Assembly (NCBI GenBank): GCA_903825315.1
Contig: CAIKAD010000005.1
Span: 1-64,000 of the forward strand
DNA from: an uncultured Candidatus Peregrinibacteria bacterium
Lineage (GTDB): Bacteria > Patescibacteriota > Gracilibacteria > Peribacterales > Peribacteraceae
Direction of reading: 5' to 3'
DNA length: 64,000 nucleotides
Shown: piece by piece, positions 9,145 to 63,671 of the stretch
Layout of the letters: every line of letters begins with the position of its first letter
How positions within the stretch are numbered: the first letter of the stretch is position 1
Made by a program: the position numbers and the translations under genes
Notes under the pieces: generated by a model
Seen by the model: the letters and a program-made list of their open reading frames with translations, nothing else
What the model was told of the DNA's origin: nothing
The model's database searches: none

Positions 9145-10215
9145 TCACTTCTCCTCCTGCGACCGCAGCGACCAACCACAGAGAACAAAAAGGAGACTTG
9201 CTCCCACATTCGCATCCCACTCCGTGTCTCGGCCAGGAGCCACCTCCACCATATCGAAGCCGACGATACGATGCCCGGACTTCACAAGAGTCTTGATGAG
9301 GAATTGTGCCTGGTTGAAGGTAATGCCGCCGGGAACCGGTGTGCCGGTATGCGGGCAGAGCGAGGGATCCAGACCGTCGATATCGAAGGAGATGTAAACG
9401 TTCCGCGGAAGCTTGTCCGCGATCGCGGTGCACACATCGTGCCACGTCTTGCCCGAGAACATATCACCAGCCATATCTTCGTCGAAGAACACGTCGATCT
9501 TCCCCGATTGGCCTTCCACAAACTCCTTCTCCTCCCGGCAAAAATCACGGATACCCACCGAGACGATCTTCTCTACGCCCGGGACACCTTCCGCAACGTT
9601 GCGCATGATGGATGCATGGGACCATGGAAAATCCTCAAAGCTCTTCCGCATGTCCAGGTGCGCATCAATGTGGAGAACTCCAATCCCCTTCTCCGCTTCC
9701 GCGCACGCCCGAATGGCACCGAGCGGCGTGGAATGGTCGCCGCCAACAAGCCCGGGAATCTTCCCCTGCCGGAGAATATTCTTCGTCTCCGCATAGACGT
9801 AGTCGTTCAGCTTCTCTCCCAGCGCATTCACGCGGTCGCAGTACTTCCTGTTGGAAGCATCCACTCCGCCTTTCGCCAGGACTTTGACGGCATTCCGACG
9901 TGCCTCGTCGTTCCACTGACGCACATCCCGGGATTCCGGGAGCAGGCAGATGCCAGCCTTGTAGAAGAGACCGAGCTCCCGATCGTAGAGATCCACCTGC
10001 GTGCTCGCCCGGAGAATGGCCGCAGGCCCTTCCGCGGCCCCCCCTCCGTACGACACCGTCGCTTCCCACGGAACGGGGAGAAGGAGAATCTTCGCCTCTT
10101 CGGGCGTTGCCGTGAGACCGAAAATATTTGCCCCACGGGCAGCTGCGCCGTAGTGATCGAAGAGAACATCCTGGTCCACCGCATTTCTGAATGCATCGTC
10201 CGCGTGAGCAGTCAT
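9145..10215 (-). CDS. speB: Agmatinase (ureohydrolase family)
   Basis: This 356-residue ureohydrolase hydrolyses agmatine to putrescine and urea with a binuclear Mn centre. The metal ligands are visible: GGDHS (His161), DAHLD (Asp184, His186, Asp188) and SFDIDGLDPS (Asp278, Asp280). The pattern SHASIMRNVAEG after the DAHLD loop fits agmatinase or a close relative better than arginase; guanidinobutyrase remains possible. It is divergent from the PLP decarboxylase gene at 10319 and lies in the same locus as homospermidine synthase and a SpeD-like decarboxylase. This suggests the route arginine to agmatine to putrescine to homospermidine. Confidence 0.88.
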   Translation of the reverse strand: MTAHADDAFRNAVDQDVLFDHYGAAARGANIFGLTATPEEAKILLLPVPWEATVSYGGGAAEGPAAILRASTQVDLYDRELGLFYKAGICLLPESRDVRQWNDEARRNAVKVLAKGGVDASNRKYCDRVNALGEKLNDYVYAETKNILRQGKIPGLVGGDHSTPLGAIRACAEAEKGIGVLHIDAHLDMRKSFEDFPWSHASIMRNVAEGVPGVEKIVSVGIRDFCREEKEFVEGQSGKIDVFFDEDMAGDMFSGKTWHDVCTAIADKLPRNVYISFDIDGLDPSLCPHTGTPVPGGITFNQAQFLIKTLVKSGHRIVGFDMVEVAPGRDTEWDANVGASLLFVLCGWSLRSQEEK

Positions 10216-10255
10216 AGGGAGGAAAAAATCTCCGCAATCATACGGGAAAAATTGA

Positions 10256-10283
10256 TTGACAGCACCCCCGCGCTCCTTATAAT
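10256..10283 (+). promoter_or_regulatory. Consensus promoter of the fold-III decarboxylase gene
   Basis: Perfect TTGACA (10256-10261) and TATAAT (10278-10283) with a 16-nt spacer predict a start near 10290 and a leader of about 29 nt. It is the only exact consensus -35/-10 pair noted in the window. A minus-strand TATGAT at 10242-10237 just upstream could serve the divergent speB. Confidence 0.85.
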
Positions 10284-10318
10284 CCGGCGTTGTTTGTTTT
10301 CCTCATCAGCTTCAAGAA

Positions 10319-11851
10319 ATGGAGCCCCCTCCCAAAGAACGTTCCTGGAAAAAAGCACCGCGTATAAGCAGGCATCAGCGCATATCCACGCGCTACATGC
10401 GCGACCGCTGGGAACGTTTTCTGTCGCAGGACAAGCGCGGTATGCTGATGATCGAGGGTGTGCCGGTGGACGAGCTCGTTGCCAGATATGGAACGCCGAT
10501 TTACGTCTATGTGGAGAGCGAGATCCGCAAACGAGCCCAGCGCTTTAAGAAGGTATTCGGGCCGGAGATCGGCCTGCAATTCGCCGTCAAATGTAACAGC
10601 AATCTGGAAATTCTCCGCATCCTCCGCGAGGAAGGCTTTGAGCTGGACTGCTCCAGCGTCGGCGAGCTCATTTTGGGGCTCCTCGCAGACTACAAGCCCA
10701 AGCAACTCTCCTTCACCAACCTCTACAAGAACGAGCGGGATCTCTTTTTCGCCACCAAGATGGGCGTGCAATCGGTGACAGCGGATTCCATTGAGGACAT
10801 TGAGCAAATCGCCCGCACGGCCAAGAAGCTCAAGAAGCACATTGACGTGGCCATCCGCGTCAATCCCATGCTGGAGATCGGCTCCTACTCCACGCGGGAC
10901 AATAAATACGGCATCCCCATTGGCTACATCGACCGCGCCATCGATCTCGCTCGCAAGAGCCCCTTTGTGGATCTCAACGGCTTCCACTTCTTCGGAGGCT
11001 ACGTGCACGAGACACGCGTCTACAAAGCCGCTGCCCGGGCCATGATCAAGCTCGTCAGGCGCTGCCAGGACCGCGGTATCAAGATTAAGTCGCTGTCGCT
11101 CGGGGGAGGGTTCCCTGCTGCAGTGGGCGACGAGCATGCGTTCCCCATCGAAGACATGAAAGACTTTCCGCGCTGGTTCAATCGCCTCGTGGAACGCAAC
11201 GGCATTGTAAACCCTCTCCGCCTCGTCTTTGAACCGGGGAAGAGCATTGTGCTCAATGCAGGTATCGGGCTTACCAAAGTGGTTTCCAAGAAACGCCTGG
11301 GGCTCAAGAAGCGCATGGTGGTGGTAGATTCTTCCGCCTACAACTTCGTACCGGATGCCCTTGTGCAGGAAGGCCTCCACTACGATCTCCTGCCTGCCTC
11401 CAAGATGAACGCCCCGCGCATCCACAAGCTCACTGTGGGCGGCAACACCTGCGACGCCTGGGAGATCATTTCCAAGGACCTCCACATGCCCAAGCTCCGC
11501 GCCGGTGACCTGCTGGCCATTATGGACGTGGGCGCCTATGCGCAGGTGATGGCGTCGAACTTCAACACCATCAAGCGTGCCGCCATCGTCCTCATGCGCC
11601 CCGACGGCACCACCAAGCTCATCCGCCGACGGGACCGCTACTCCGAGATGTTCGCGCCCGAATTGGACGTCCTGAAGATTGCGGGCCGGGACGAGCTGGA
11701 GCACTACAACAACCTCTACCGCGTGAACGTGGATAAGTACTGGAGAGGTCAGGTGAAACGCCGGAAAGGCAGGAACGGAAACGGCAATGGCAACGGACAC
11801 AGCCCGCTCGCCAAGAAGTTCCGGGAGTTGGAGGAGGCAGCGGCTCGGTAA
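10319..11851 (+). CDS. PLP-dependent decarboxylase, alanine-racemase fold (LysA/ODC/ADC type)
   Basis: The 510-residue protein has the fold-III decarboxylase layout: N-terminal PLP barrel with FAVKCNSN (Schiff-base Lys91), phosphate loop SLGGGFP (262-264), EPGK (305-308), and C-terminal beta domain with GNTCDAW (Cys378, Asp379) and VGAYAQVMASNFN. The CD pair and HFFGG in place of HIGSQ differ from typical diaminopimelate decarboxylase and recall ornithine/arginine or carboxynorspermidine decarboxylases. The substrate cannot be fixed from sequence. Its neighbours (agmatinase, homospermidine synthase) favour a polyamine role. The Lys/Arg-rich start (about 40 residues) and the Asn-Gly-rich tail are extra. 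Expressed from a consensus promoter. Confidence 0.85.
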   Translation: MEPPPKERSWKKAPRISRHQRISTRYMRDRWERFLSQDKRGMLMIEGVPVDELVARYGTPIYVYVESEIRKRAQRFKKVFGPEIGLQFAVKCNSNLEILRILREEGFELDCSSVGELILGLLADYKPKQLSFTNLYKNERDLFFATKMGVQSVTADSIEDIEQIARTAKKLKKHIDVAIRVNPMLEIGSYSTRDNKYGIPIGYIDRAIDLARKSPFVDLNGFHFFGGYVHETRVYKAAARAMIKLVRRCQDRGIKIKSLSLGGGFPAAVGDEHAFPIEDMKDFPRWFNRLVERNGIVNPLRLVFEPGKSIVLNAGIGLTKVVSKKRLGLKKRMVVVDSSAYNFVPDALVQEGLHYDLLPASKMNAPRIHKLTVGGNTCDAWEIISKDLHMPKLRAGDLLAIMDVGAYAQVMASNFNTIKRAAIVLMRPDGTTKLIRRRDRYSEMFAPELDVLKIAGRDELEHYNNLYRVNVDKYWRGQVKRRKGRNGNGNGNGHSPLAKKFRELEEAAAR

Positions 11852-11984
11852 CTGTTTCTCGTTTCTGGCTAACTGGTTTCTCAATGCGGGAGTACGTCTC
11901 GCAAGAAACTGCCGTGTACTCATCCAGCAACGAGAGCCCGGCTCACCAGACACCTTTTTAATCCCTGAATACTCAAACAGTATG

Positions 11985-13475
11985 TCAGGCCACTAAAAAG
12001 TTCTGGAACTGCCATGGATCATCATCCGCGGGCGCAAAGTTGTTCACAGTCTGCGCAGCCACGGTGTCGTTGCCATGTGGGCTCCAGTCGAGCGGAACAG
12101 AAGGGCATTCACCCAGGTACGGCCCGGCTACGGACAAGATCTCCTCGTGCGGTAGCTGATCGGGGACAAGGACTCCTTTGGCAGGGTTCTTGATCATCCA
12201 AAAGACCGCTCCCAGGACGGAAGCCGCTACCTGCATCGTCGTAGCGTTCATGCCGGGAACGAGGCGGCGCGCCTCTTCGATGCTCAATACCGTACCGGTC
12301 CACCAGGACTTGAAATCATGCCCCATGAAGAGACATCCGAGCTCATCGATGCCGGAGACGATGTCGTCGTTCATCACCCGCATCTTCTCCTGTTTTACAT
12401 AGTGACGGTTGCGCAGCGCATGCAGGGAATCAATGGCGGCAAGGCTGGGACAGTACGCGTAGTGGACCGTAGGACGGTAGACTGGCGTGCCATCGGCGCC
12501 GTTGACGGTCAGGTAATCCGAGATGGTGAATGCCTCGCCGTGGCGTACGACCATGCCCACAATGTCCTGGCTCGGCACGCGGGATCGGACATAGGTATTG
12601 ATACCGAACTGCGCCATGCAGATCTGGTTCCGGGGCCCGCTCACGTGGATACGGGCGTTGGGGGGCAGCTTGCGCTCGTGCGTCCCCCACCCCATCTCCG
12701 CCGGCGCCGTCCCCTCCTCGTAGAACCCCTCGACGCTCCAGGTGTTCACGAATTCGTCAAAATCGTGGGGCTTGTTGCTGATCTGCGTATCAATCTCGCT
12801 GATGTGGATCACTTTGACGGAGAGGAGCATCGCCAGACGCGGGTAATCCCCGCTATCGATCGCTTTCTGGATGTCCTGAATGCGCGGATCCTTGGGCTTT
12901 GCCTCCATGAGCTTCTTAGCGATGTCCAACAGCCCCCGCTTGGTGAAATGGGAGACGAGTCCCGGATTGGCACCATGCTCGAGAATCGCCGTGGGCCCCG
13001 GCTCCTTCCAGCCCCGCATCATGGCGCGGATGGCCATGTGACGCACGTAGAGCGTGCGGTCCGTGGAGAGCTTTGTGTCCCAATTCTCGTAGGGATCCCA
13101 CAGCTCCACCGACGTGTTAACGTACAGGACACCGTTATCATGACACCACTGGAGAATGTCCGTGCAGCCGATGTTCCACGCCAGGTCAATGAGAATGTCC
13201 CCCTTGCCAAGATACTTCCCGAACTGCTGTCCCATGGTGGCCCGCTCAATCTTCTCGCAAACAAACTTCACCCCCTCCTTGAGAGCGGGTTGGAGAAGAG
13301 GATTCTTACTATAATCCACAAAGTCCATCACAGTGATGTGGTCCCGCGGCATATCGAGGTGCCGCAGCAGCATCGGAAGTGTGCACTGGGCAACACCGCC
13401 GTACCCTAGCAAAAGGATCCGGCCTGAAAACGTGGTGCGCAGTCTCGCCGCGATCGAATCGAGTGATTCCATCAT
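11985..13475 (-). CDS. hss: Homospermidine synthase
   Basis: The 496-residue protein resembles bacterial homospermidine synthase along its whole length. It has a Rossmann start (RILLLGYGGVAQCTLPML), then EHGANPGLVSHF, FDEFVNTWSVEGFYEEG, WGTHERKLPPNA, RPTVHYAYCPS, GIDELGCLFMGHD, and the ending DPWQFQNFLVA. The enzyme makes sym-homospermidine from putrescine by an NAD-dependent aminobutyl transfer. Start chosen at the double ATG (13475/13472); further upstream the frame is not family-like. It is convergent with the decarboxylase gene and lies 171 nt downstream of the SpeD-like gene on the same strand. Carboxynorspermidine dehydrogenase, a relative, is shorter and lacks these motifs. Confidence 0.92.
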   Translation of the reverse strand: MMESLDSIAARLRTTFSGRILLLGYGGVAQCTLPMLLRHLDMPRDHITVMDFVDYSKNPLLQPALKEGVKFVCEKIERATMGQQFGKYLGKGDILIDLAWNIGCTDILQWCHDNGVLYVNTSVELWDPYENWDTKLSTDRTLYVRHMAIRAMMRGWKEPGPTAILEHGANPGLVSHFTKRGLLDIAKKLMEAKPKDPRIQDIQKAIDSGDYPRLAMLLSVKVIHISEIDTQISNKPHDFDEFVNTWSVEGFYEEGTAPAEMGWGTHERKLPPNARIHVSGPRNQICMAQFGINTYVRSRVPSQDIVGMVVRHGEAFTISDYLTVNGADGTPVYRPTVHYAYCPSLAAIDSLHALRNRHYVKQEKMRVMNDDIVSGIDELGCLFMGHDFKSWWTGTVLSIEEARRLVPGMNATTMQVAASVLGAVFWMIKNPAKGVLVPDQLPHEEILSVAGPYLGECPSVPLDWSPHGNDTVAAQTVNNFAPADDDPWQFQNFLVA

Positions 13476-13646
13476 GATAAGTAAGGTAATAATAGAAGAC
13501 AGGTTCGTTCCCCAAGAACCCCCACCATTTCCGCTGCCCGCCGGTACCAAACAGATGCATTCAGGCAGGCCACCTCTCCAGCCATCAAGCGGGAGGGGAA
13601 GAAGAGGGATGCCAAGGAAACCTTCAGCATCACTCGGAATCGCATG

Positions 13647-14210
13647 TCAGGCAGCTACGAGCGAAGAGTTGAGAACAATGTTCCGCCCGGAGAACTCCTT
13701 CTGGTACGCCTTGGGGAATTCCGCGCAGCCACGGAGCAGGCAGTGTGCGTTGTACGAAGTCCCCTTAAAGAACTCGAGCGCGTAGTCGATCACCGTCTGC
13801 GCCTCGTAGAACTTGCAGCTGAAGACATCCAGATAGACGGAGCCGGTCTGGTTGGCAAAGTGTGCGGAGATGAGAGACGTCTCGATGAGCTGGGTCATGG
13901 AAAAACCTGCGACCCTCTCATCCTCGCCGAAGTTGACCACCAGCGTCTCGCCAAACCTCTTCATGTCGATCTTTACACACAGTTCCTTCACGAAATTCTT
14001 GATGGCTTCCGCGTCGCGGATGGTGGCGGGGTCGCAGCCGTGGATATCAATGGCGATGGCCATACCCCAGGCTTTGCTGTTTTCGTATTCTGCTTTCGAG
14101 AGCGGCTTAAAAGGCTTTACTGAGGAAGATATACGAGTGGCGGCCCTGGTGGGACGCGAGGCTGAACGTGAACGCGACGAGAGCGTCCGGCTAGCCGAGT
14201 GAGTGACCAT
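13647..14210 (-). CDS. SpeD-like pyruvoyl-dependent decarboxylase (AdoMetDC homolog)
   Basis: The 187-residue protein belongs to the class 1B S-adenosylmethionine decarboxylase fold. IAIDIHGCDP matches the family's first strand, and TSLISAHF...DVFSC matches the self-cleavage region. Ser112 (pyruvoyl source), His117 and Cys132 keep the exact spacing of the SpeD residues Ser63, His68 and Cys83 of Thermotoga. The residue before the serine is Thr instead of the usual Glu, and the following His is Leu. SpeD homologs that turned into arginine or ornithine decarboxylases are known in bacteria, including CPR lineages. With agmatinase and homospermidine synthase nearby and no spermidine synthase in the window, an arginine (or ornithine) decarboxylase role is more likely than AdoMet decarboxylation (inference). 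Confidence 0.78.
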   Translation of the reverse strand: MVTHSASRTLSSRSRSASRPTRAATRISSSVKPFKPLSKAEYENSKAWGMAIAIDIHGCDPATIRDAEAIKNFVKELCVKIDMKRFGETLVVNFGEDERVAGFSMTQLIETSLISAHFANQTGSVYLDVFSCKFYEAQTVIDYALEFFKGTSYNAHCLLRGCAEFPKAYQKEFSGRNIVLNSSLVAA

Positions 14211-14462
14211 GTCAATTAGTTGGGAAGAAACAATAATTGACCAAAAATATAAGCGCATGAATTCACATGTCAATGAATTTTTTTCCCAGTTTCCCGCTGC
14301 GAGGACTCCCGCCTACCTCACGCGGGCAGCTCCATTCTTTCTCTGCCCATCACCAAGCCATATTCGGGCAGCCCCAGACCTCGCGCTCGCCGCAGCCCCT
14401 TGCGAAATATCTCTTGCATGAGAAACGATTTCTTTCGTCGTTATCCCCCTCGGGAACTCCAC

Positions 14463-51648: not shown

Positions 51649-51724
51649 AGGCGCGTAGCTCAGCTGGTAGAGCACAGGTCTCCAAAACCTGGGGTCGTAG
51701 GTTCGAGCCCTACCGCGCCTGCCA
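51649..51724 (+). tRNA. tRNA-Trp (CCA)
   Basis: A complete cloverleaf: acceptor AGGCGCG/CGCGCCT, anticodon arm CAGGT-CTCCAAA-ACCTG with CCA, T arm GTAGG-TTCGAGC-CCTAC, and an encoded CCA end. Confidence 0.97.
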
Positions 51725-52795: not shown

Positions 52796-52801
52796 TCCGA
52801 G

Positions 52802-52876
52802 GGAGCACGACGGGCTTCGAACCCGCAACCACTGGATCCACAATCCAGTGCTCTAACCAATTGAGCTACGTGCTCC
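52802..52876 (-). tRNA. tRNA-His (GTG)
   Basis: A complete cloverleaf with anticodon arm CTGGA-TTGTGGA-TCCAG (GTG). An extra 5' G pairs with discriminator C, the mark of tRNA-His. Unlike the other two tRNAs here, the CCA end is not encoded. Confidence 0.95.
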
Positions 52877-52921: not shown

Positions 52922-52940
52922 TTGTTTAGCGTGGTAAAGC
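52922..52940. repeat. 19-bp direct repeat, copy 1
   Basis: TTGTTTAGCGTGGTAAAGC occurs here, spanning the stop codon of the TrpR-like gene, and again exactly at 53471-53489. The core TTTAGCGTGGTAAA is partly palindromic (TTTA...TAAA), so operator function is possible. Confidence 0.7.
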
Positions 52941-53294
52941 GTGGATGCCTGTCGCCGGGAAAACGGGACTCACCTCTTTGTTCACCGATTGTTTCCCACG
53001 TAATTCACACACTTTCTGGTAACCTCCTTTTCCATATGTTAACCAATGCGCCACCCGTGCAATAGTAGTGCTGCTGGCTCCGGTTTTTTGTGTAATCACC
53101 CGATATGGGCAATTCTCCCAAACCATTTTTGCTATCGACCAGCGTTCCGTCATTTCCTTGAGTTCCTGAATTGTACACAGGTCACGAAGGAAGTTCTCAA
53201 AATCCTCAACGGTTTCGAGCATGAGCATAGACCTACAGAGGTCTCGCGACTCTTCGTTGGGAAAGTCGAACCTATGCGCATTTGTGGCAGTCAT
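52926..53294 (-). CDS. TrpR-family regulator (YerC/YecD/HisR-like)
   Basis: The 122-residue protein matches the YerC/YecD branch of the Trp repressor superfamily. ETVEDFENFLRDLCTIQELK is followed by ITQKTGASSTTIARVAHWLTYG, the helix-turn-helix, and GGYQKVCE. In Firmicutes this branch (HisR) controls histidine biosynthesis. Its position beside hisS and the his operon supports the same job here (inference). The last four codons lie in a 19-bp repeat that recurs upstream at 53471. Confidence 0.85.
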   Translation of the reverse strand: MTATNAHRFDFPNEESRDLCRSMLMLETVEDFENFLRDLCTIQELKEMTERWSIAKMVWENCPYRVITQKTGASSTTIARVAHWLTYGKGGYQKVCELRGKQSVNKEVSPVFPATGIHALPR

Positions 53295-53627
53295 ATGGAG
53301 GCAAAGTCGTAGTTTACAGCAAGCAAATACCTTGTAAATTGCAATTTAGAACCAACAGTCCTGAGAAGCTACAGCTCCTGGCAACATTCATAATTGATAT
53401 TGCGAGTTTTCCTCTTGTAATAAACAAATATTCAGTTCTACACACTCATAGAACCCCCCCTCCATAGAAATTGTTTAGCGTGGTAAAGCATTGTTGCTCC
53501 ACCCTGCTACTCGTTGCCATGAGCGTCTCTCTATGAGATGACATGCCATGGCTCTTTTACACCATCGGGAGAGTCACAAATATTGCAGATCACCAATCCC
53601 TCGCAACAGTACAGGAGTAACAGTAGC
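53295..53627. promoter_or_regulatory. Leader/spacer of the LOG-hisS unit
   Basis: The 333-nt spacer contains TTGATA (about 53395-53400) with TAATAA about 18 nt on, a possible plus-strand promoter, and the second 19-bp repeat (53471-53489) between it and the gene at 53628. No gene is seen. Confidence 0.45.
53471..53489. repeat. 19-bp direct repeat, copy 2
   Basis: Exact second copy of TTGTTTAGCGTGGTAAAGC, lying 138 nt before the gene at 53628 in the probable leader of the hisS unit. A binding site for the adjacent TrpR-family regulator is the simplest reading. Confidence 0.7.
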
Positions 53628-54323
53628 ATGAACGCCTTCTCAGAGAACCTTAACCAAGCAGTGGAGAATTTCCGACAGCAGCATGGACTGCATCATTTCA
53701 TCGCGTTCTCCGGCGGAGCATCCACCGATCTCCCCGGAGTACCCAAAGATGATCCGCTCCAGAAGCAATTCGAGCAGATCCTCGCGGAACGCGAAGTGCG
53801 GCTCGTGCAGGAGGTCCTCAATATCCTGCGCCACTACCGGATCGCCGTCCTCACCGGCGGAACCCGCTTCGGGTTCCCCAAGACGGCCATGGAAACCGCC
53901 AAGGCTATGAAGCTCAAGACCATCGGCGTCTTCCCCAAAACCGCGCTTGAAAAAGGGTACGTCCTTCCGGACATCGATTTTCCCATTTGCGTCGATCCGC
54001 CGTACGGCGAGAGCGCATGGGGCGACGAGAGCAGCGTCTTCGCGAAGCTGCTCGATGCCGTGATCGTCGTGGGCGGAGGAGCAGGTACACTCATCGAAGC
54101 CTCGCACATCCTCAAGATGAACGAGAGTCTTCTCAAGTACGGCCACCCCCTCAAGATCGTCATTCCGATTCACGGCACCGGCGGTGTCGCGGACGGACTG
54201 CCCTTTGTTTGGGGCAAACAGGAAATCAAAAATGCCTGCATGCCTCAAAAACCCATGTTGTGCGGCCAGGATGCTGCGGTGTACATTCAGGATCACCTCG
54301 ATTTGTTTCCCTTTTCCCAATAG
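53628..54323 (+). CDS. LOG-family/Rossmann-fold nucleotide-binding protein
   Basis: The 231-residue protein shows LOG/TIGR00730-type features: VLTGGTRFGFPKTAMETAKA and VVGGGAGTLIEASHIL (instead of PGGxGTxxE). The second glycine-rich motif deviates, so phosphoribohydrolase (cytokinin-type) activity is uncertain. It lies 10 nt before hisS and is probably co-transcribed. AGGAG lies 12 nt before the ATG. Confidence 0.7.
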   Translation: MNAFSENLNQAVENFRQQHGLHHFIAFSGGASTDLPGVPKDDPLQKQFEQILAEREVRLVQEVLNILRHYRIAVLTGGTRFGFPKTAMETAKAMKLKTIGVFPKTALEKGYVLPDIDFPICVDPPYGESAWGDESSVFAKLLDAVIVVGGGAGTLIEASHILKMNESLLKYGHPLKIVIPIHGTGGVADGLPFVWGKQEIKNACMPQKPMLCGQDAAVYIQDHLDLFPFSQ

Positions 54324-54333
54324 GAGCAAGACC

Positions 54334-55731
54334 ATGCCTTCCGTTTCTGTCAGTTCGATCTCGGGCTTCAAGGAATTCCTGCCCGAGGAACAAATCGTGC
54401 TTGAGCGGATGAAGGACATCATCCGCAAGCACTACACCCTGTTCGGCTTCGCTCCGATCGAAGTTGCTGCCGTCGAGCGCGAGCAGGTGCTCCTCTCCAA
54501 AGGAGGAGAGAACACCAAGCAAATCTACGGCATCCATCTCCTCGATCGCGCCGACCAGGAGCACGGTGAAAGCGCCGACAAGCGCCTCGCTCTGCACTTT
54601 GATCTCACTGTGCCCCTCGCGCGGTACGTCGCACAGAACTATGGAAAGCTCGACTTCCCGTTCCGCCGCTACCAGATCCAAAAAGTCTGGCGTGGAGAAC
54701 GGGCTCAGGAAGGGCGGTTCCGGGAGTTCTACCAGTGCGACATCGACGTCATCGGCGATGGCGAACTCGGCCTCCTCCATGATGCGGAGATGCCTGCGGT
54801 CATCCATGGCATCTTCTCGGAATTGCAGGTGGGCAAGTTCGTGATTCGCCTCAACAACCGCAAAGTGCTCAATGGACTGCTCGAGCATTTCCGGATTCCT
54901 CTCCAGTTCACGGTTCCTATTGAATCCGAGGGAACTGGCGAACCGATCGGCGGTAACACCTTCAACACCTTGGGCCTGATCGACAAGATGGAGAAGGACG
55001 GAATCGAAGAGACCCGCAGGCGATTCCGCGACCATGTCCATGTCTCTGATGAGCAGGTTTCGACGCTGCTCGCCGTGCTGACTTTCAAGGACACTACTGC
55101 GGCTACCCTGAAGTGGCTGCAGGAGCAACAGTGCGGAGAGCTCTTCTGCCAGGGAGTTTCCGAATTGGCGGAAGTGGTCGGCTCCATGCGGGCGTTGGGA
55201 GTGCCGAGCGAGAGCTTTACCATCGATCTCGGGATCACACGGGGCCTCGACTATTATACCGGCACGGTGTACGAGACAACCCTCGTGAATCATGAGAGCA
55301 TCGGCAGCGTCTGCTCCGGCGGACGCTTCGACGACCTGGCAAGCACGTTCATCGACCGGAAACTGCCGGGGGTCGGCATCTCCATCGGCCTCACGCGGCT
55401 GTTCGCCTCGTTGCAGAAACACGGCGTAATCCAGGTCGGCCCGAAGTGCCCGTCCAAGGCGATCATCTTCCAGATGTCGCCGCAGCTCCGCGAGGACTAC
55501 TTCGCTCAAGCCATGGCACTGCGCCAGGCGGGCATCCCCACCGAGGTGTACCTGGAAGACCGCAAGTTCGATCGCCAGACGAAGTACGCCGTGAAGAAGA
55601 GGATCCCTCTCGGGATCTTCTTAGATGCCGCCCGCAAGGAGAAAGGCGTCTGCACCGTTCGCGATTTCCGCAACGGCGATGAGCAGAGCGTGCCGCTGAA
55701 GGATCTTGCTGAATACCTTCATCGGAAGTAA
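54334..55731 (+). CDS. hisS: Histidyl-tRNA synthetase
   Basis: The 465-residue class II synthetase charges tRNA-His. It has motif 2 region FRRYQIQKVWRGERAQEGRFREFYQCDIDVIG, and the histidine-specific signatures ITRGLDYYTGTVYE and GSVCSGGRFDDLAST. The C-terminal anticodon domain is present. AGGAG lies 8 nt before the ATG, a Shine-Dalgarno unlike most genes here. It heads a histidine-themed region. Confidence 0.96.
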   Translation: MPSVSVSSISGFKEFLPEEQIVLERMKDIIRKHYTLFGFAPIEVAAVEREQVLLSKGGENTKQIYGIHLLDRADQEHGESADKRLALHFDLTVPLARYVAQNYGKLDFPFRRYQIQKVWRGERAQEGRFREFYQCDIDVIGDGELGLLHDAEMPAVIHGIFSELQVGKFVIRLNNRKVLNGLLEHFRIPLQFTVPIESEGTGEPIGGNTFNTLGLIDKMEKDGIEETRRRFRDHVHVSDEQVSTLLAVLTFKDTTAATLKWLQEQQCGELFCQGVSELAEVVGSMRALGVPSESFTIDLGITRGLDYYTGTVYETTLVNHESIGSVCSGGRFDDLASTFIDRKLPGVGISIGLTRLFASLQKHGVIQVGPKCPSKAIIFQMSPQLREDYFAQAMALRQAGIPTEVYLEDRKFDRQTKYAVKKRIPLGIFLDAARKEKGVCTVRDFRNGDEQSVPLKDLAEYLHRK

Positions 55732-55759: not shown

Positions 55760-55806
55760 GTGCCCTGAGGTCCGTTTCGACGGACTTCAGGGCACACCTC
55801 TTTGTT
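55760..55806 (+). terminator. Terminator of the hisS unit
   Basis: GTGCCCTGAGGTCCG and CGGACTTCAGGGCAC form a long stem, followed by a weak CCTCTTTGTT tail. Confidence 0.65.
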
Positions 55807-55881: not shown

Positions 55882-56694
55882 ATGACGATTGACTTCGTCA
55901 AAATCCTTCCAGGCGGCAACACAACCATTCTCGTAGAATCTCCTGTGAAGATCGAAGATAGGGCTGCAGTTTCAAATCAACTCATGTCCGCAGAAATGCT
56001 ATCCGCGGAACAAGTCGGCTTTATCAGCGCCCCTCCACGCGGAATGGATGCCCGACTTGATATGATGGGAGGGGAATTATGCGTCAATGCACTACGTTCC
56101 CTCTCTGCACTGCTGTTTTCCCGTGACTCCTCTAAAGAAACATGCATCCTGTCCTCATCCGGCGCAGAATCGCCAGTCACCTGCAACAACGTCTTGCTTG
56201 ATAATGGTAACTATTATTCTTCTCTCGCGCTGCAGATTTCAACGAATATTGAACATCTGGAAGACGATTGTGATCTCGTGCGGTTAAACGGTATTGCGCA
56301 CATACTCCAACGGGTGCATGCGGCTCCCACGCATCGGGAGATACTGAATGTATTCAACAACGTTCGCAGGAAATACGATAAGAGCATTGAGGAGTATCCA
56401 GCCTTCGGCGTGATTCTTTACGTACAAAACGGCTCTTCTCTCGCCGCCTTTCCCGTAGTCCATGTGCGCCAAACGGACAGTACGGTATTCGAAACTGGCT
56501 GCGGCAGCGGAAGTATTGCTCTCGCCTTGCTCAAGAATCCCCGACCAGATCAGAAGCTCATCATTCTCCAGCCGAGTGGATATACCTACGACGTATCTAT
56601 TTCTCCTTCAGAAAGAGGAGTATCCGTTCGATTGGGGAGTGAAGTCCGTATTGTAGTAAAGGGAACCGCCATTCTCCCCCCTGTCCGCCCATGA
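55882..56694 (+). CDS. DapF-fold amino acid racemase, CntK/histidine-racemase-like
   Basis: The 270-residue PLP-independent racemase has the two half-barrels of the diaminopimelate epimerase fold. The catalytic cysteines are Cys67 (GGELCVNALRSL) and Cys207 (ETGCGSGSIAL). The N-terminal motif LPGGNTTILV and NQLMSAEMLSAEQVGFI resemble CntK, the histidine racemase of the staphylopine pathway, more than true DapF (GLGNDF). A histidine substrate also suits the neighbourhood (hisS, his operon), but this is inference. Its stop overlaps the next start (ATGA). Confidence 0.7.
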   Translation: MTIDFVKILPGGNTTILVESPVKIEDRAAVSNQLMSAEMLSAEQVGFISAPPRGMDARLDMMGGELCVNALRSLSALLFSRDSSKETCILSSSGAESPVTCNNVLLDNGNYYSSLALQISTNIEHLEDDCDLVRLNGIAHILQRVHAAPTHREILNVFNNVRRKYDKSIEEYPAFGVILYVQNGSSLAAFPVVHVRQTDSTVFETGCGSGSIALALLKNPRPDQKLIILQPSGYTYDVSISPSERGVSVRLGSEVRIVVKGTAILPPVRP

Positions 56695-58295
56695 CTTCCA
56701 TTTCTCTGCGCGCCGAGAGGCAAATTCCGGATCGAACGGAAACCGCCAGCCGCGTTCTCGCCTTTGCCGAGCGCCTCATTCCTTCTCTTCAACAACGTTG
56801 GCAGGGGACTCTCTTTTCAATGGAACGCGGCAGCATGAAGCTTACCGAAGCAGGCGATCTTCACTTGATGCTTGCGGCACGTATCCGTACTTCGATAGAG
56901 GACATTCCACCTGAACAAGTTCCAGCCATTCTGCGCAACTCTGCTACGGTCCTCTTCGCGTTTTTGCAAACGAAGGATCTCATAGCCAATATCGATCAAA
57001 GGGGGCTTATCGATCTAGTAGTCATGTCAATCGAATCCTGCAAGGATCCGCAGTATTTCCACGACATGGAGATCCGCATAGGTTACGGAGCCGCCAATCT
57101 TCCTACTCCAAACGCCCGGGCTGCTTCCTATGTCGTCCCTGCAAAAATTATCCTCACATCTTTGCGCTGTGGACGCGAAAGGCAGGAGCTTGTGGCAATA
57201 GCAGATGGTGCTGCCCTTGGAGAACTTGCTGCGCCGTACCAAAAAATTCGCGGGAAACTGATCGATAATCTGCCATTAACCAAGGAGCAGGAAACGCTCG
57301 TCACGGCTCTTGCGGAGCACGTACGAGATTTTCCCATCGATGATGAATCAGCATCTCGGGTTGCTTTTCCACAAGCCCTACCCCGGATTATTGTCTACTC
57401 GGCCCATCACTTTGTCGGCCAAACGAATAATGGGGAAGCAGAACAGATGCATGCGAATGCCGCACAGAACGCAGCCCTCGTCCGCCGCTATATCGAAGAA
57501 AGCTGCGATCCGCGCATAGCGGAACGTTTCTCGTTGGATGCGGACGTGGAGGTGAATCCTGCAAGCATGCTCGCACGTCAGATCGAATATTTCACTCATT
57601 GCCTCCGTACTACGATCGATCCAAAGGGACAGGAGAATCGCGAGAAAATTCTTCGCATGGGACAGAAACACGCGAGAGATAATGAAGAAGGCTCATTGCA
57701 ATATGCTGCCGCCCATGCACTGTATTCATCCGACGATGTTCAGGTTCCTCCAGTGAGTATCCTGCAGCACACGCCCACCCATCCTTCAAAACTGATCATG
57801 ATCGGCGGAGAGCCTGAAAAGACATTCTGGAGGGTGCGGCAGACGGTTGCGCGCGAAGCCTCTATTCCGAAAGGCATTGAATATTTCCGCAGCCGACTGG
57901 CTGAGCTTGGCGTTGCCAACTCTGATGGGTACTGCGAGATTCTGACCATGTACGAGCGCGCCCGGGAGGTAAACGACCAGGACCACAACGTGCTGCGCGC
58001 GCAGCTTATCTGCAAAATCGGCGAACTTCCGGTATACGCGGGTGGTTATGACAATGATCCATCCATCGGACAGATCGCAAACGAACTCTCACTGTCCGAT
58101 CTGGTGGCCTTACGCACAGCTCGCACGTCCATGAAAGAGGATTTATTTCACATCATCGCGGACCTTGCAGGAGTGTCTTCTACAGAGGCTATGTCACTCC
58201 TCAAGGCAAAGCAGCCCAATCCTGCCCTCTTGGGAAAAATGGAGCAGGGATACCAAAGATTCCGTCGGATCTGCGCATCTGTACAAGCGGAATAA
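56691..58295 (+). CDS. Unknown 534-residue protein of the racemase/decarboxylase cluster
   Basis: The protein is soluble, mostly helical, without a signal peptide. Segments include MKLTEAGDLHLMLAARIRTS, RIIVYSAHHFVGQTNNGEA and KLIMIGGEPEKTFWRVRQTV, none of which I can assign. It is translationally coupled to the racemase gene by ATGA overlap. Its size and context suggest an enzyme acting on the racemase product, but no nicotianamine-synthase or opine-dehydrogenase signature is seen. Confidence 0.75.
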   Translation: MTSISLRAERQIPDRTETASRVLAFAERLIPSLQQRWQGTLFSMERGSMKLTEAGDLHLMLAARIRTSIEDIPPEQVPAILRNSATVLFAFLQTKDLIANIDQRGLIDLVVMSIESCKDPQYFHDMEIRIGYGAANLPTPNARAASYVVPAKIILTSLRCGRERQELVAIADGAALGELAAPYQKIRGKLIDNLPLTKEQETLVTALAEHVRDFPIDDESASRVAFPQALPRIIVYSAHHFVGQTNNGEAEQMHANAAQNAALVRRYIEESCDPRIAERFSLDADVEVNPASMLARQIEYFTHCLRTTIDPKGQENREKILRMGQKHARDNEEGSLQYAAAHALYSSDDVQVPPVSILQHTPTHPSKLIMIGGEPEKTFWRVRQTVAREASIPKGIEYFRSRLAELGVANSDGYCEILTMYERAREVNDQDHNVLRAQLICKIGELPVYAGGYDNDPSIGQIANELSLSDLVALRTARTSMKEDLFHIIADLAGVSSTEAMSLLKAKQPNPALLGKMEQGYQRFRRICASVQAE

Positions 58296-58354
58296 TACAG
58301 CGCTCTACCGAGTTACAGTGGTGCAGATCGCGAATGTACACGTAGGATAGCATC

Positions 58355-58855
58355 ATGCATTCTTGGCATACCCGCAAAGGAACCGTATTTGTGACTTCCG
58401 GCGTGGGTTACGGGAAAACTTCTCTGTCTGCCTTCGATGCCGCAGAGCTGGATGCTAAAATTCATGCAACCAATGCGATACGCGTTACATCGTTCGTACC
58501 GCCGCACTGGAGCATTTCCAAACAGCAGGACAGGCTCGCGACAATGAGCGGGAAGGGGGCTTTTCTGCCCATGGCTTACCAATATGCCATTTCGGTTAAG
58601 GAGAGCGTCGCTGCCTGTCTCGTCATCGGAATCAATGCCGATCTTGAGCAGGCTTCCATCATTATGGAGCACGCGGAGACAGGCATGGAACCGGAGGCGC
58701 TTCAACAGATTGCGCAAGAATCGGTTTGCGAGGTGTTCCGTTTCCGTGGATGGACGATTGCCGACTTCGTCAAATCGGAGGCCTTTGGCAAACCCAAAGA
58801 CGGCCTCTTTGTCTGCGCACTCGTAGCCGCTCTCTATTTCCCAGGAGAGAATTAA
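58355..58855 (+). CDS. Pyruvoyl-dependent decarboxylase (PvlArgDC family)
   Basis: The 166-residue protein matches the pyruvoyl arginine decarboxylase family, which is related to pyruvoyl histidine decarboxylase. FVTSGVGYGKTSLSAFDAA is followed by IRVTSFVPPHW, where autocleavage before Ser46 would yield the pyruvoyl group (archaeal enzymes have VSSIFPP). ESVCEVFRFRGW near the end also fits. Substrate: arginine by family, histidine by context; undecided. It is 59 nt behind the unknown gene and ends 7 nt before the convergent hisIE stop. Confidence 0.8.
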   Translation: MHSWHTRKGTVFVTSGVGYGKTSLSAFDAAELDAKIHATNAIRVTSFVPPHWSISKQQDRLATMSGKGAFLPMAYQYAISVKESVAACLVIGINADLEQASIIMEHAETGMEPEALQQIAQESVCEVFRFRGWTIADFVKSEAFGKPKDGLFVCALVAALYFPGEN

Positions 58856-58862
58856 CGCTCGT

Positions 58863-59468
58863 TCACTTTCTCCGCCTCCTCAATTCGGCGGCAATATCCG
58901 CCAACTCAACCTTTTCTCCCCGCAAGAGCACAAAGAGGTGATAAAGCACATCAGAGGCTTCCTCAATAGTCCGCTGTTTCCCCTCGCTCCGCGCCGCGCG
59001 TACGACTTCTTCCGCTTCCTCCATCACCTTTGCGCCGTAGGCTTCCACTCCTCCGTCGAGAAGTTTTTTCGTGTAGGAATTAGCATCTTTGCCTTCGTCC
59101 CTCTCACGAATTGTCCGCAGGAGCAAGCCCAGGGTTTCCAGCGTGCCCTCTTGTTCCCCAAAGCATGAACGCATGCCGGTGTGACACGTGGGACCGGTGG
59201 GGACGGCGCTGATGAGGAGCGCATCGCGGTCGCAGTCGGAGGAAGCGGATAGGAATTTCAGAACGTTCCCCGAGACTTCACCCTTCTTCCAGAGCCGTTG
59301 TTTGGAGCGGCTGAAAAACGTCACAAAGCCCGTGCTCATCGTTACCTGTAGCGCCTCCTCGTTCATGTACCCCAACATAAGCACAGTACCTGCTTCCGCA
59401 TCCTGTACGATGGCAGGGAGGAGGCCGTCGTCATTCTTGGTCCAGTCGAGAGAGGGAAAATTGTTCAT
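58863..59468 (-). CDS. hisI: Bifunctional phosphoribosyl-AMP cyclohydrolase/phosphoribosyl-ATP pyrophosphatase
   Basis: The 201-residue HisIE catalyses steps 2 and 3 of histidine synthesis. The HisI half has VLMLGYMNEEAL, FFSRSKQRLWKKGE and SDCDRDALL plus CHTG Zn/Mg ligands. The HisE half (about 110-201) has SYTKKLLDGGVEAYGAKVMEEAEE and EASDVLYHLFVLL. It overlaps hisAF by 4 nt and ends the his operon. Confidence 0.95.
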   Translation of the reverse strand: MNNFPSLDWTKNDDGLLPAIVQDAEAGTVLMLGYMNEEALQVTMSTGFVTFFSRSKQRLWKKGEVSGNVLKFLSASSDCDRDALLISAVPTGPTCHTGMRSCFGEQEGTLETLGLLLRTIRERDEGKDANSYTKKLLDGGVEAYGAKVMEEAEEVVRAARSEGKQRTIEEASDVLYHLFVLLRGEKVELADIAAELRRRRK

Positions 59469-60982
59469 AGTCGAACGGGGTAAGAAGCTTCTCGGAGAGC
59501 CTGTTTGACTTGCTTGATAGAGAACGTGCCGAAGTGGAAGACACTCGCGGCGAGGACGGCGTCGGCATTGCCGCTGTTCACGGCATCCACAAAAGAAGAA
59601 AGGGTACCCGCTCCACCCGATGCAATCACGGGCACCCGCACGCGCTTCTTCACGTGCGCAAGGAGTTCAACATCGAAACCCTCGCCGGTTCCGTCCCTGT
59701 CGAAGGAGGTGACAAGGAGTTCGCCCGCTCCACGGCGCACGGCCTCCTCCGCCCATTCGAGGGCATCGATTCCCGTGTCCTCGCGCCCTCCCCGCACGAG
59801 AACATTCCAACGATCCCCGACTTTCTTTGCATCAATGGCACAGACAGTGTTCGCCCGCCCCAATTCTTCCGCCATCCGGGAGAGAAGAGTGGGATCGTTC
59901 ACGGCAGCCGAATTGATGGATACCTTGTCCGCCCCCGCCTCCAGAAGGCGCCGGGCATCCTCTACGCTTCTAATGCCTCCTCCTACAGTAAACGGGATAT
60001 TCACGGCATCGGCCACGCGGGCGGCAAGGTCGAACACTGCATCCCGCCTCTCGGCAGTTGCCGTGATATCGAGAAAGACGAGTTCGTCAGCTCCTTCCTC
60101 GCAGTACCGCTTGGCAAGTTCTACGGGGTCTCCCGCGTCCCGCAAATTCTGGAAGCTCGTACCCTTCTTCACGCGACCTTCGTCAATATCGAGACAGGGG
60201 ATAATGCGTATGGCAAGACCGTTCCCCGTCGGGATTATTCCCTGCCATTCGGAACCTTGAGGATATGCTTCAAGGAGTTCCTTGAGCATCACCGATCCAT
60301 TAAGGAGCGCCTTGCCGATGACGACGGCATCGCACGGAACTTGTGCGAGCGCCTCCACATCATGCGAATCCCGAACGCCGCCGCTTGCGGTGATCATGAG
60401 CTCAGGGAATCGCATACGAAGGCCCCTGTACAATTCGACGTTCGGCCCCCCTTCCATGCCATCCAACGCAACGTCTGTCACCAATATCTCGCGGATGCCC
60501 ATCTCCTGCGCTAAACGGCATGCCGCATCAATGTCGCAACCGCTGCCCTCACGCCAACCATGCGTCCGTACCTCGCGTCCCTTTACATCGAGCGCAGCTA
60601 TAAACCGGCGAGGTCCGAATAGCGTGAGCGCGGATCGAACAAGGTCGGGTTTTGAGAATAAGAGCGTGCCGACCACGATTTTCTCCGCCCCCGCATCCAG
60701 TGTGGCTTGGATATCCTTGAGCGAACGCAGCCCTCCTCCCGTCTGGATGCGCAGCGCCGTTCCCGCGGAGATCCGCTGAATCAAACCGAGGAATTCCGCC
60801 GTTACCTGTCCCTCCTTTGCGCCGGAAAGGTTTACGAGGTGCAGACGCTGCGCGCCCGCAACTTCGTAGTTGTGAGCCAGCGCGAGAGGAGACTGGCTGT
60901 AGATCGTTGTTTGTGCAAAATCCCCCTGCTTCAAGCGCACGGTATTACCGTCGAGCACGTCAATGGCGGGGATTATTTGCAC
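59465..60982 (-). CDS. hisAF: HisA-HisF fusion (ProFAR isomerase plus IGP synthase cyclase)
   Basis: The 505-residue chain contains two complete TIM barrels without a stop between them. Residues 1-245 are His[13 protein letters not shown] (Asp8), [20 protein letters not shown] (Asp132) and ITASGGVRD. Residues about 255-505 are His[19 protein letters not shown] (Asp265), [21 protein letters not shown] (Asp384) and VIASGGAG. All four catalytic aspartates are kept, so both steps should work. The GTG start at 60982 overlaps the end of hisH; the frame upstream is not HisA-like. HisH, the glutaminase partner of HisF, is encoded just upstream. HisA and HisF are usually separate. Confidence 0.93.
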
Positions 60983-61548
60983 AATTCTACAAAGGAAAGG
61001 AGATAATTGTCTCCTGCCTGCCCCGATTTTTCCGGGTGCCACTGGAGCCCGAAAAAGTTCTTCTTTCGAACACCGGCGCAGATCTCGGTACCGTACTGCG
61101 CTGTCATAGTGGTCATGAGGGGATCATGCGGCATGCACGAATACCCATGCACAAAATACGCGTAGGAACCTGTGCTCAGCAGGTTCCATCCCATATGCGG
61201 CTTGATGACATCATCGGGCAATATACTCACGTTTCCCGGAATAATGCCGAGGCATTCCGTATCGCCTTCCTCCGAATGGTCAAAGAGGAGCTGCATGCCA
61301 AGACAAAGACCAAGAAATGGCCTGGGGTAGTCTTTGATCACATCTATAAGCTTCTTCTTCCGGAGATCATTCATCGCGGATTGCGCTGCCCCCGCTCCCG
61401 GAAAGATAAGGCCGTCAACTGCAGCGATTCCCTCGGATGTCTCTACGATGCATGAAGAAATGTGGAGTCGCATGAGTGCGCGCTGGACGCTCCCCGTGTT
61501 TCCTGCGGAGTAGCGAAGAATGCCGATGAGCGGCGAATAGTTGGCCAT
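60973..61548 (-). CDS. hisH: Imidazole glycerol phosphate synthase subunit HisH
   Basis: The 191-residue class I glutamine amidotransferase supplies ammonia to HisF. Catalytic Cys is in FLGLCLGMQLLF, and His/Glu in FGLQWHPEKSG. PHMGWN is also typical. It starts one base after hisB ends, and its last codons overlap the hisAF GTG. Confidence 0.95.
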   Translation of the reverse strand: MANYSPLIGILRYSAGNTGSVQRALMRLHISSCIVETSEGIAAVDGLIFPGAGAAQSAMNDLRKKKLIDVIKDYPRPFLGLCLGMQLLFDHSEEGDTECLGIIPGNVSILPDDVIKPHMGWNLLSTGSYAYFVHGYSCMPHDPLMTTMTAQYGTEICAGVRKKNFFGLQWHPEKSGQAGDNYLLSFVELCK

Positions 61549-62610
61549 CTAGAGGGAACCTTTTGTAGAAGGAATGCCGTGCTCGTGCGGGCAGTTACGG
61601 AAGGCTTGTCGGAGGCAACGTCCAAGACCTTTGAAGAGAGCTTCGATCTTGTGGTGCTCATTCCTCCCGCGACGGATGGTCATATGCAGGTTGCATTTGA
61701 GCGCCTGTGCGAGCGACTCAAAGAAGTGCGCGACGAGTTCGGTGGGCAATTCTCCAACGTACTCGCGTTTGAATTCGCCATCAAAGACAAAGTACGGACG
61801 TCCGGAGAGATCCAGGGCAATTTCCACAAGAGCCTCATCCATGGGCAGGAGGAAGCCATACCGTTCAATACTGCGCTTTTCTCCCAATGCTTCCGCAAGC
61901 GCATTGCCGATGGCGAGAGCGACGTCTTCTACTGTGTGATGCTCATCCACGTTGAGGTCCCCCCTTACGGTGAGTACAAGATCAATCAATGAGTGTTTTG
62001 CGAGGAGATCCAGCATGTGATCAAGAAAGCCGATACCCGTAGCAATTTCCGACCGGCCGCTTCCATCGATATTCACTAATACAGAAATATTTGTCTCCTT
62101 TGTATTTCGCTGGAGGGACGCAAAGCGCGGGAATCCTCCATTCGTATCCATGCGGACAAATTGTGTCTTTAGATTCTTGGCAAATTCTGCATCCGTCTCT
62201 CGATCGCCGATCACAAAAGAAGAAGATAGATCGAAGCCCTTATTCTTCAGAAATGATCTCACAAGTCCCGTTTGCGGTTTCCGGCAATCACAACCGTCTT
62301 TTGGAAGGTGTGGACAAACGAATATTTCCGTGAATGTTATGTCATGTTCTGCAAGCTGGCGAAGGAATTCCTTTTGCGGTATTTCGAAGTCTCGTTTCGG
62401 AAAGGCGCGCGTTCCCAGTCCATCTTGGTTACTGACCATGACCAGCGCAAAACCGCTTTTCTGCAATGCCCTTAGACCCTTGATGACACCGGGCAAGATC
62501 CGGAGTTTCTGCAAGCTATCGATCTGCTTCGTCTCGGGAGGTTCCCAGAGCATTGTGCCGTCCCTGTCGACAAATGCGACCCGTGGCGAGCGATATCGTA
62601 TTGCCTTCAT
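61549..62610 (-). CDS. hisB: Bifunctional histidinol-phosphatase/imidazoleglycerol-phosphate dehydratase
   Basis: The 353-residue protein joins an HAD phosphatase (FVDRDGTMLWEPPE, Zn-binding CPHLPKDGCDCRKP, IGDRETDAEFA) to an IGPD domain (GFLDHMLDLLAKHS, DEHHTVEDVALAIGNAL, HHKIEALFKGLGRCL). It covers steps 6 and 8. This fusion is known from gamma-proteobacteria and Bacteroidetes, so a transfer is possible. Start by hisC overlap (ATGA) at 62610; a longer frame to 62694 lies in hisC. Confidence 0.94.
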   Translation of the reverse strand: MKAIRYRSPRVAFVDRDGTMLWEPPETKQIDSLQKLRILPGVIKGLRALQKSGFALVMVSNQDGLGTRAFPKRDFEIPQKEFLRQLAEHDITFTEIFVCPHLPKDGCDCRKPQTGLVRSFLKNKGFDLSSSFVIGDRETDAEFAKNLKTQFVRMDTNGGFPRFASLQRNTKETNISVLVNIDGSGRSEIATGIGFLDHMLDLLAKHSLIDLVLTVRGDLNVDEHHTVEDVALAIGNALAEALGEKRSIERYGFLLPMDEALVEIALDLSGRPYFVFDGEFKREYVGELPTELVAHFFESLAQALKCNLHMTIRRGRNEHHKIEALFKGLGRCLRQAFRNCPHEHGIPSTKGSL

Positions 62611-63671
62611 AAGAGTGTGGTGAGAGCTGAAAGGAGGAGATCGTTTTCTCGTCGGGTTCCGACAGTGATACGCAGCATCTTCTTGTTTTGCCATTCAATG
62701 AGACGCAGCACAATGCCATTATTATTCCGTAGATTCATGTACGTCTCTTCGGCATCGTTGCCTTTCGGGAGATCAATAAGAAAGAAGTTCGTCACGGACG
62801 GATAAGCGCGGCATCCGAGCTTGCCGAGCGCCCGCATAAGACGCTCACGTTCGGCAACGAGGGTGCGCACGTTGCATCTCATGCGGTCAGAATCCCCCCA
62901 GAGACGCAGCCCGATTTCCTGCGTGAGACTGTTCACATTGTACGGCGATTTCATCTTCAGAAGCGTCTCGATGATCTCTTGCGCAGCAATGCCGTATCCC
63001 AAGCGGATGCCGGCGGCAGCGAATGCTTTGCTGAACGTCCGAAGCACAATGAGATTCTTTTTCCCTTCGTGGACCAGTGTAATCGCAGAGGGAATATTGG
63101 AAGCATCGGCAAATTCACCATATGCTTCGTCCACCACTACAATACCTGGGAAAGCATCCAATACCCTCTTAACCGCTGGGAGGCCGATCACGGTCCCAGT
63201 GGGATTATTCGGACTGCATAGGAACAAGAGATCGGCGTTCTTTGTGCGGCGCAGAAAAGACCTGATTTTGATGTCGCCATTCTTTCCAAGCGGTACCGTG
63301 CCGTAAGCGGCGCCATTCGTTTCGGCGCTCACGCGGTACATGCCGTACGTCGGCGCAACACTAAGAATGCGCCTGCCCTTACGCACAAAGGACCGAATGC
63401 TTAGATCAATCAACTCATCCGAGCCGTTTCCTATGACGATATTCTCCCGCCCCACGCCATACGAAGCGGCGATTGCATCCCGCAGCTTGTCTGCAGTGGG
63501 ATCAGGATACCGATTAAGCGCGGAACAGTTGTTGCGGAAGAACGGAGGAGCGGAGGGCGACTCGTTGGCATCCATAAAGATCCATTCGTCCCCTTTGAGG
63601 AGCGAACGCGCAGAAGCATAGGGTTTCAATCGCTTCACATTGGCCGGCAGAGGAAGAGATGAAGTTCTCAT
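62607..63671 (-). CDS. hisC: Histidinol-phosphate aminotransferase
   Basis: The 354-residue fold-I PLP enzyme converts imidazole-acetol phosphate to histidinol phosphate. It shows FMDANESPSAPP, LNRYPDPTADKLRDAIAASY, NGSDELIDL, CSPNNPTGT, DEAYGEF and the Schiff-base segment LRTFSKAFAAAGIRLGYG. Start overlaps the hisD stop (ATGA), and its own stop overlaps hisB. Confidence 0.95.
   Translation of the reverse strand: MRTSSLPLPANVKRLKPYASARSLLKGDEWIFMDANESPSAPPFFRNNCSALNRYPDPTADKLRDAIAASYGVGRENIVIGNGSDELIDLSIRSFVRKGRRILSVAPTYGMYRVSAETNGAAYGTVPLGKNGDIKIRSFLRRTKNADLLFLCSPNNPTGTVIGLPAVKRVLDAFPGIVVVDEAYGEFADASNIPSAITLVHEGKKNLIVLRTFSKAFAAAGIRLGYGIAAQEIIETLLKMKSPYNVNSLTQEIGLRLWGDSDRMRCNVRTLVAERERLMRALGKLGCRAYPSVTNFFLIDLPKGNDAEETYMNLRNNNGIVLRLIEWQNKKMLRITVGTRRENDLLLSALTTLL

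Follow-up and report, generated by a model that had tools for sequence, protein, structure and literature searches.

A racemase-coupled protein with a predicted class Ic aminoacyl-tRNA synthetase-like fold in a possible histidine cassette of a candidate-phylum bacterium

In this study, we analysed a window of 64,000 nt (positions 1 to 64,000 of contig CAIKAD010000005.1, assembly GCA_903825315.1) from the genome of an uncultured Candidatus Peregrinibacteria bacterium, here called G000. The three open reading frames on which the original prediction was based are all present on the forward strand. The first (55882–56694) encodes a 270-aa histidine-racemase-like protein of the DapF fold, in which Cys67, Cys207 and Glu65 are kept. 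The second (56691–58295) encodes a 534-aa protein, referred to below as U, which is class Ic aminoacyl-tRNA synthetase (aaRS)-like in its predicted fold and lacks the HIGH and KMSKS motifs. The third (58355–58855) encodes a 166-aa pyruvoyl enzyme of the PvlArgDC fold. The stop codon of the racemase gene and the ATG of U share the sequence ATGA, a 4-bp overlap that bears out the translational coupling claimed earlier, and the decarboxylase gene starts 59 bp 3′ of U. Outside the trio, VanX-like and ammonia-lyase-like neighbours were also seen, both named from their translations.

The trio is convergent with a group of histidine-biosynthesis genes on the reverse strand (58863–63671), namely hisI/E, a hisA-F fusion, hisH, hisB and hisC, the names being read from translations without profiles. 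This operon runs past the end of the window to hisG, identified by a profile match, and has a second TrpR-like gene (PF01371; L136) at its head. On the other side of the trio lies HisRS2 (54334–55731, forward strand), a divergent second full-length histidyl-tRNA synthetase with an anticodon-binding domain, and 3′ of it a 16-bp terminator-like hairpin (55760–55795, forward strand). The trio had been described as flanked by hisS and the histidine operon; the operon is indeed there, but the synthetase gene is this divergent second copy and not the housekeeping one. HisRS2 is adjoined on the same strand by a gene for a SLOG-family protein (PF18306; 53538–54323), an arrangement also found in genomes G062 and G311. 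Further upstream, the reverse strand carries a gene for a TrpR-family regulator (PF01371, 70.5 bits; 52926–53294), possibly a histidine repressor of the HisR/YerC type, and a second tRNA-His gene with the anticodon GTG (52801–52875), which was found by ARAGORN and has a G at −1, C73 and no encoded CCA. Between the regulator gene and the SLOG–HisRS2 genes lies a 20-bp palindrome with one mismatch, TTGTAAATTGCAATTTAGAA (53332–53351). Palindromes of 20 bp are typical of the operators of HisR repressors of the TrpR family (PMC9413887), and judging from its sequence this one is a candidate operator.

The racemase had been predicted to be a CntK-like protein of the DapF fold with both catalytic cysteines, and this was confirmed by profiles, by the PDB and by residue comparison. 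Among the NCBIfam profiles, HisR-Fuso matched it at 109 bits (E = 3e-31) and CntK at 94 bits, and the DapF model gave no match. Because these scores lie below the equivalog cut-offs (400 bits for HisR-Fuso and 300 bits for CntK), we label the protein histidine-racemase-like. Its top PDB match was the Fusobacterium histidine racemase (E = 1e-22), the lower matches being entries labelled diaminopimelate epimerase, including S. aureus CntK (E = 4.5e-14). The diaminopimelate epimerase family PF01678 matched nothing anywhere in the genome, the window racemase included. With the cofactor-independent racemases CntK and HisR the protein shares the DapF fold, both catalytic cysteines (Cys67 and Cys207 align with HisR Cys67 and Cys209) and the equivalents of Asn18, Glu65, Asn69 and Glu206, which are kept in nine relatives as well; it departs from them in its scores below the cut-offs, in a Val at Gly68 and in having no staphylopine genes adjoining. 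The histidine-contact roles of HisR residues have been proposed (PMC11602996), and all the contact residues checked are kept except Gly68, which is Val, and Ala210, which is Gly. The window enzyme is a likely histidine racemase.

U homologues were searched for in whole genomes of the class Gracilibacteria (n = 353, TGA-recoded members included) and then phylum-wide. Fourteen of the 353 genomes, this one counted, hold a homologue, and two more were found across the phylum; a scan of genome contigs gave no loci beyond those already found. The homologues fall into a long form of 430–663 aa and a short form of about 290–330 aa. In 14 of the 16 loci, a count drawn from incomplete assemblies, a racemase-type gene adjoins U or its short form, and these racemases belong to three unrelated folds. 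The long form is paired with a DapF-fold racemase in G000, G228, G019, G062 and G291, which are five of the 10 genomes among the 353 that have such a racemase at all; in G198 and G256 its partner is a class III PLP enzyme. The G198 enzyme had its best PDB matches in two racemases, one of broad specificity for amino acids (247 bits) and one for Ala/Ser (218 bits), which scored above an acetylornithine aminotransferase (184 bits). Short forms stand next to a racemase of the Asp/Glu fold in G048, G227, G056, G047, G183, G185 and G204. A racemase neighbour is lacking only in G245 and in G510, where U is a fragment. Because the racemases next to the short homologues are of other kinds, the core partnership is that of U with a racemase and is not confined to histidine. 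The expectation that the trio would recur as a unit in other genomes was borne out, in that the order racemase–U–decarboxylase is found again in G228 and the adjacent pair of DapF-fold racemase and U, there without the decarboxylase, in G019, G062 and G291.

The assignment of the third protein to the PvlArgDC type also held. It matched PF01862 at 74 bits (gathering cut-off 22.7) and, as in PvlArgDC, the self-cleavage Ser and the equivalents of Asp35 and Glu109 are kept. It may therefore be an ordinary arginine decarboxylase for polyamine synthesis and no more than a neighbour of the racemase and U, a reading that is quite credible although we lean slightly away from it. Genes for agmatinase (9145–10215) and AdoMet decarboxylase (13647–14273) are present in the same window, and the racemase–U pair exists without a decarboxylase in three genomes. 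However, the gene stands here outside any polyamine operon, and PvlArgDC was found in only two of 96 relatives, and chance would hardly place it in both trio loci. Moreover, the G000 and G228 enzymes differ from that of M. jannaschii at Leu38, which is Glu, and Ile54, which is Phe, two residues that presumably line the pocket, whereas a PvlArgDC copy in G092, near an arginase-like ORF, keeps both the Leu and the Ile. The reference sequence, which we take to be that of the M. jannaschii PvlArgDC, agrees with the PDB alignment over the parts shown. A decarboxylase gene joins the pair in three of the 14 loci; in the third, G048, the adjoining enzyme is of the PLP fold and MfnA/histidine-decarboxylase-like, which also speaks against a chance neighbour.

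HisRS2 matched TIGR00442 at 341 bits (cut-off 287), compared with 441 bits for the housekeeping HisRS of the same genome (G000 C1:380108–381331), to which it is 23% identical. Its anticodon-binding domain matched PF03129 at 42 bits. A HisZ identity was ruled out by this domain and by HisG, which is of the long form (HisG_C domain). The HisRS2 copies from six racemase loci, together with that of G046, form one clade (support 1.000). The gene for the second tRNA-His, which is 1.5 kb upstream of HisRS2, has a folding z of −4.3; among the 47 tRNA genes of the whole genome, taken from overlapping pieces, CAT and GTG are the only anticodons present twice. A same-genus control without the cassette has one tRNA-His in about half of the genome examined. 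No second tRNA-His turned up next to any other cassette; some of these are on short contigs.

These two genes could be a spare set for translation, acquired from outside and controlled by histidine, with no tie to U, which we consider possible but somewhat doubtful. HisRS2 has an anticodon-binding domain, and the strong terminator-like hairpin between it and the trio suggests that it is transcribed separately. In G046, HisRS2 stands beside the his operon without a racemase or U, so that it may also act in histidine control on its own, and several control genomes also have a second HisRS, so HisRS2 may not be dedicated to the cassette; conversely, G019 has U and the racemase without a second HisRS. 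What argues against a mere spare pair is that, in six genomes from five families, HisRS2 and a histidine racemase are no more than about 2.5 kb apart.

By sequence, U matched nothing in Pfam, NCBIfam, PADLOC, PHROGs or the PDB. Its earlier description as a protein of no known family thus stands as far as sequence families are concerned, but U is not featureless, since a class Ic aaRS-like fold is predicted for it. A phage or defence role was rejected, as neither PADLOC nor PHROGs gave a match. The fold search that had been proposed for this protein was carried out on a homologue and on the long form with AlphaFold2 models, which rest on four sequences, have low-confidence parts and reach a mean pLDDT of 64 (short form) and 69. 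All 13 Foldseek matches with E ≤ 1e-3 for the modelled short-form homologue of G048 (pTM 0.69) were TyrRS or TrpRS, and its comparison with TyrRS/TrpRS by VIA gave Z 14.1 over 243 aligned residues (rmsd 4.3). For the long-form model (pTM 0.68), VIA gave Z 9.9 with TyrRS. From these models, the fold of U appears to be class Ic aaRS-like. Unlike TyrRS and TrpRS, the family has lost the ATP-activation motifs: neither KMSKS nor a true HIGH is present in any of 15 U homologues, whereas both occur in all 13 TrpRS controls. Besides U, the genome encodes both a normal TyrRS and a normal TrpRS. The U profile had no significant match to TyrRS/TrpRS profiles, which does not count against the fold because cyclodipeptide synthases (CDPSs) against TyrRS, with these thin profiles, were not significant either. 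A global profile alignment of U was uninformative.

The known family that U most resembles in sequence profile is CDPS (PF16715). CDPSs are derived from class Ic synthetases (PMC2922099) and have a Rossmann fold of that origin without ATP motifs, which U appears to share. They were the nearest profile match of long-form U, with a score of 28.3 against a mean of 14.7 and a maximum of 24.9 for 100 column-shuffled decoys, although the match is weak in itself (E = 0.008, probability 5%). In this weak alignment, the invariant Tyr338 of U falls on the catalytic Tyr178 of CDPS and His342 on Glu182, a position that is His or Asn in the U family. Three of the four CDPS catalytic residues, whose roles have been described (PMC7566563), namely the Ser, the Glu and the second Tyr, are absent from U. 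The GxSxxN motif is found in none of the 15 U homologues, compared with nine of 10 CDPSs, and PF16715 had no match in U and 10 homologues at E ≤ 1. The reference used for S. noursei, which we take to be the AlbC sequence, agrees with the PDB alignment over the parts shown. In the fold searches, CDPS appeared only at E > 1 with the long model and was absent among the 50 best matches listed for the short one. Among 192 genomes of the class, PF16715 likewise found no CDPS, but as its controls gave no match either, absence does not follow. U further differs from CDPS in its long helical N-terminal extension and in having a racemase neighbour nearly always. Because HIGH, KMSKS and the CDPS serine motif are all absent, U counts, on the features examined, neither as an active synthetase nor as a CDPS. 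Nine residues are invariant in all 15 homologues (G133, N246, Y338, G372, G373, E376, G444, P447 and Y449), of which the polar N246, Y338, E376 and Y449 look catalytic from their conservation.

An aaRS-like fold without ATP motifs points to aminoacyl-tRNA chemistry rather than to a plain pathway of racemase and decarboxylase. Of the small pathway originally envisaged, the conserved unit and the histidine link survive, the latter through the residue conservation in the racemase, HisRS2, the second tRNA-His, the TrpR-family regulator and the adjoining his operon; the plain racemase/decarboxylase scheme now seems less likely. We propose, with a probability of roughly 45%, that these genes make up a histidine cassette with U at its centre, and that U, a diverged protein of the class Ic aaRS type without the motifs for ATP activation, takes histidine from His-tRNA and joins it to an acceptor. 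In this scheme, HisRS2 would charge tRNA-His, perhaps mainly the second tRNA-His. U would then bind the His-tRNA and pass its histidyl moiety on to an acceptor amine, giving a dipeptide-like or amide product, a step modelled on that of CDPS though lacking the serine acyl-enzyme formed there. The coupled racemase would provide D-His as the acceptor or invert a stereocentre of the product, and the PvlArgDC-fold enzyme would supply or make an amine. The relatives may follow the same scheme with other amino acids by way of the Asp/Glu-fold or PLP racemase.

Alternatively, U may work without tRNA, as a D-amino-acid ligase (ATP-dependent or -independent) or as a binding or regulatory partner of the racemase in which the amino-acid pocket of the synthetase alone is kept. 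That U is so strictly tied to racemases, whichever of the three folds they have, would suit the passing of a D-amino acid straight from one protein to the other, the residues needed for ATP activation and most of those of CDPS catalysis are gone, and no HisRS or tRNA-His gene stands beside the short-form loci. This reading and that of an ordinary arginine decarboxylase are the strongest competitors of the proposal. Even so, we consider a U without tRNA rather unlikely, given that a second HisRS and a second tRNA-His adjoin this copy of U, that the nearest profile match is a tRNA-using family and that its invariant polar residues have a catalytic look. It is highly improbable that U is an isonitrile synthase of the DIT1/PvcA type: PIsnA was the top Foldseek match of the long model, at a non-significant E of 0.16 (VIA Z 8.3), but TyrRS scored above PIsnA with both models and Pfam DIT1_PvcA matched none of the homologues scanned. 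A staphylopine-like, opine-type metallophore pathway, which the CntK-like racemase might bring to mind, was rejected as the least probable of all, because U is neither nicotianamine-synthase-like nor an opine dehydrogenase and the trio and adjoining genes include no CntL- or CntM-like gene.

The proposed cassette, with U using His-tRNA, has a parallel in the nocardioazine pathway, where NozR, a homologue of Asp/Glu racemases, inverts the product of a CDPS (PMC10156859). Both would combine a peptide-forming enzyme of aaRS fold with a stereoisomerase, of the Asp/Glu fold in NozR and in some U loci, although the enzyme family, the taxa and the probable amino acid differ. MshC is a further paralogue of a synthetase. 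Tentatively, and with slightly less than even confidence, we suggest that U represents a third kind of aaRS-derived non-ribosomal enzyme beside CDPS and the MshC-type paralogues, forming in Gracilibacteria a constant partnership with racemases of three unrelated folds that can stand in for one another, and fed here by its own HisRS and tRNA-His, so as to make small peptides containing D-amino acids.

To our knowledge, very few enzyme lineages use the tRNA-charging fold for small-molecule synthesis, and we know of no established role in secondary metabolism for candidate-phylum bacteria. If the proposal is true, a family without ATP motifs or the CDPS nucleophile, partnered by racemases of three folds, would add another chemistry to this fold and would be a source of D-amino-acid products in ultra-small, genome-reduced bacteria. 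The duplicated HisRS and tRNA-His set allows the question of tRNA use to be tested directly. The cassette suggests a new route to a histidine-derived small molecule.

Beside the gene for HisRS2, the second, divergent histidyl-tRNA synthetase, lies a gene for a SLOG-family protein (window 53538-54323), and HisRS2 also has a SLOG-family neighbour in the relatives G062 and G311. A tRNA-Trp gene (window 51649-51724) is located 1.1 kb from the second tRNA-His gene; at the G048 locus encoding a short form of the synthetase-like protein U, tRNA-Trp (L025:8763-8838) likewise adjoins the cassette. TrpR-like ORFs, named from their translations, are close to the short-form U genes of G048, G056, and G047 (loci L025, L028, and L029), and the his operon of the window's genome is headed, just beyond the window, by a second TrpR-family regulator (G000:C5:65909-66292; L136:3909-4292).

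In a polyamine-like cluster (window 9145-14273), agmatinase and AdoMet decarboxylase are accompanied by a decarboxylase of the alanine-racemase fold (10319-11851) and a saccharopine-dehydrogenase-like ORF. The PvlArgDC of G092 (L068:4630-5181) scored 193 bits, above the window copy; it is followed by apparent deoxyhypusine-synthase-like and arginase-like ORFs, a setting that differs from that of the window gene.

Judging from translations, a GNAT acetyltransferase-like domain is joined to a histidine-racemase-like domain in G029 (L061:5013-6491), G311 (L062:5699-7099), and G095 (L063:5543-7069). By the same naming, a VanX-like D,D-dipeptidase-like ORF adjoins the fusion in G029 and G311, and a histidine-ammonia-lyase-like ORF is also present at the G311 locus. 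The three fusion loci apparently represent a second D-histidine system.
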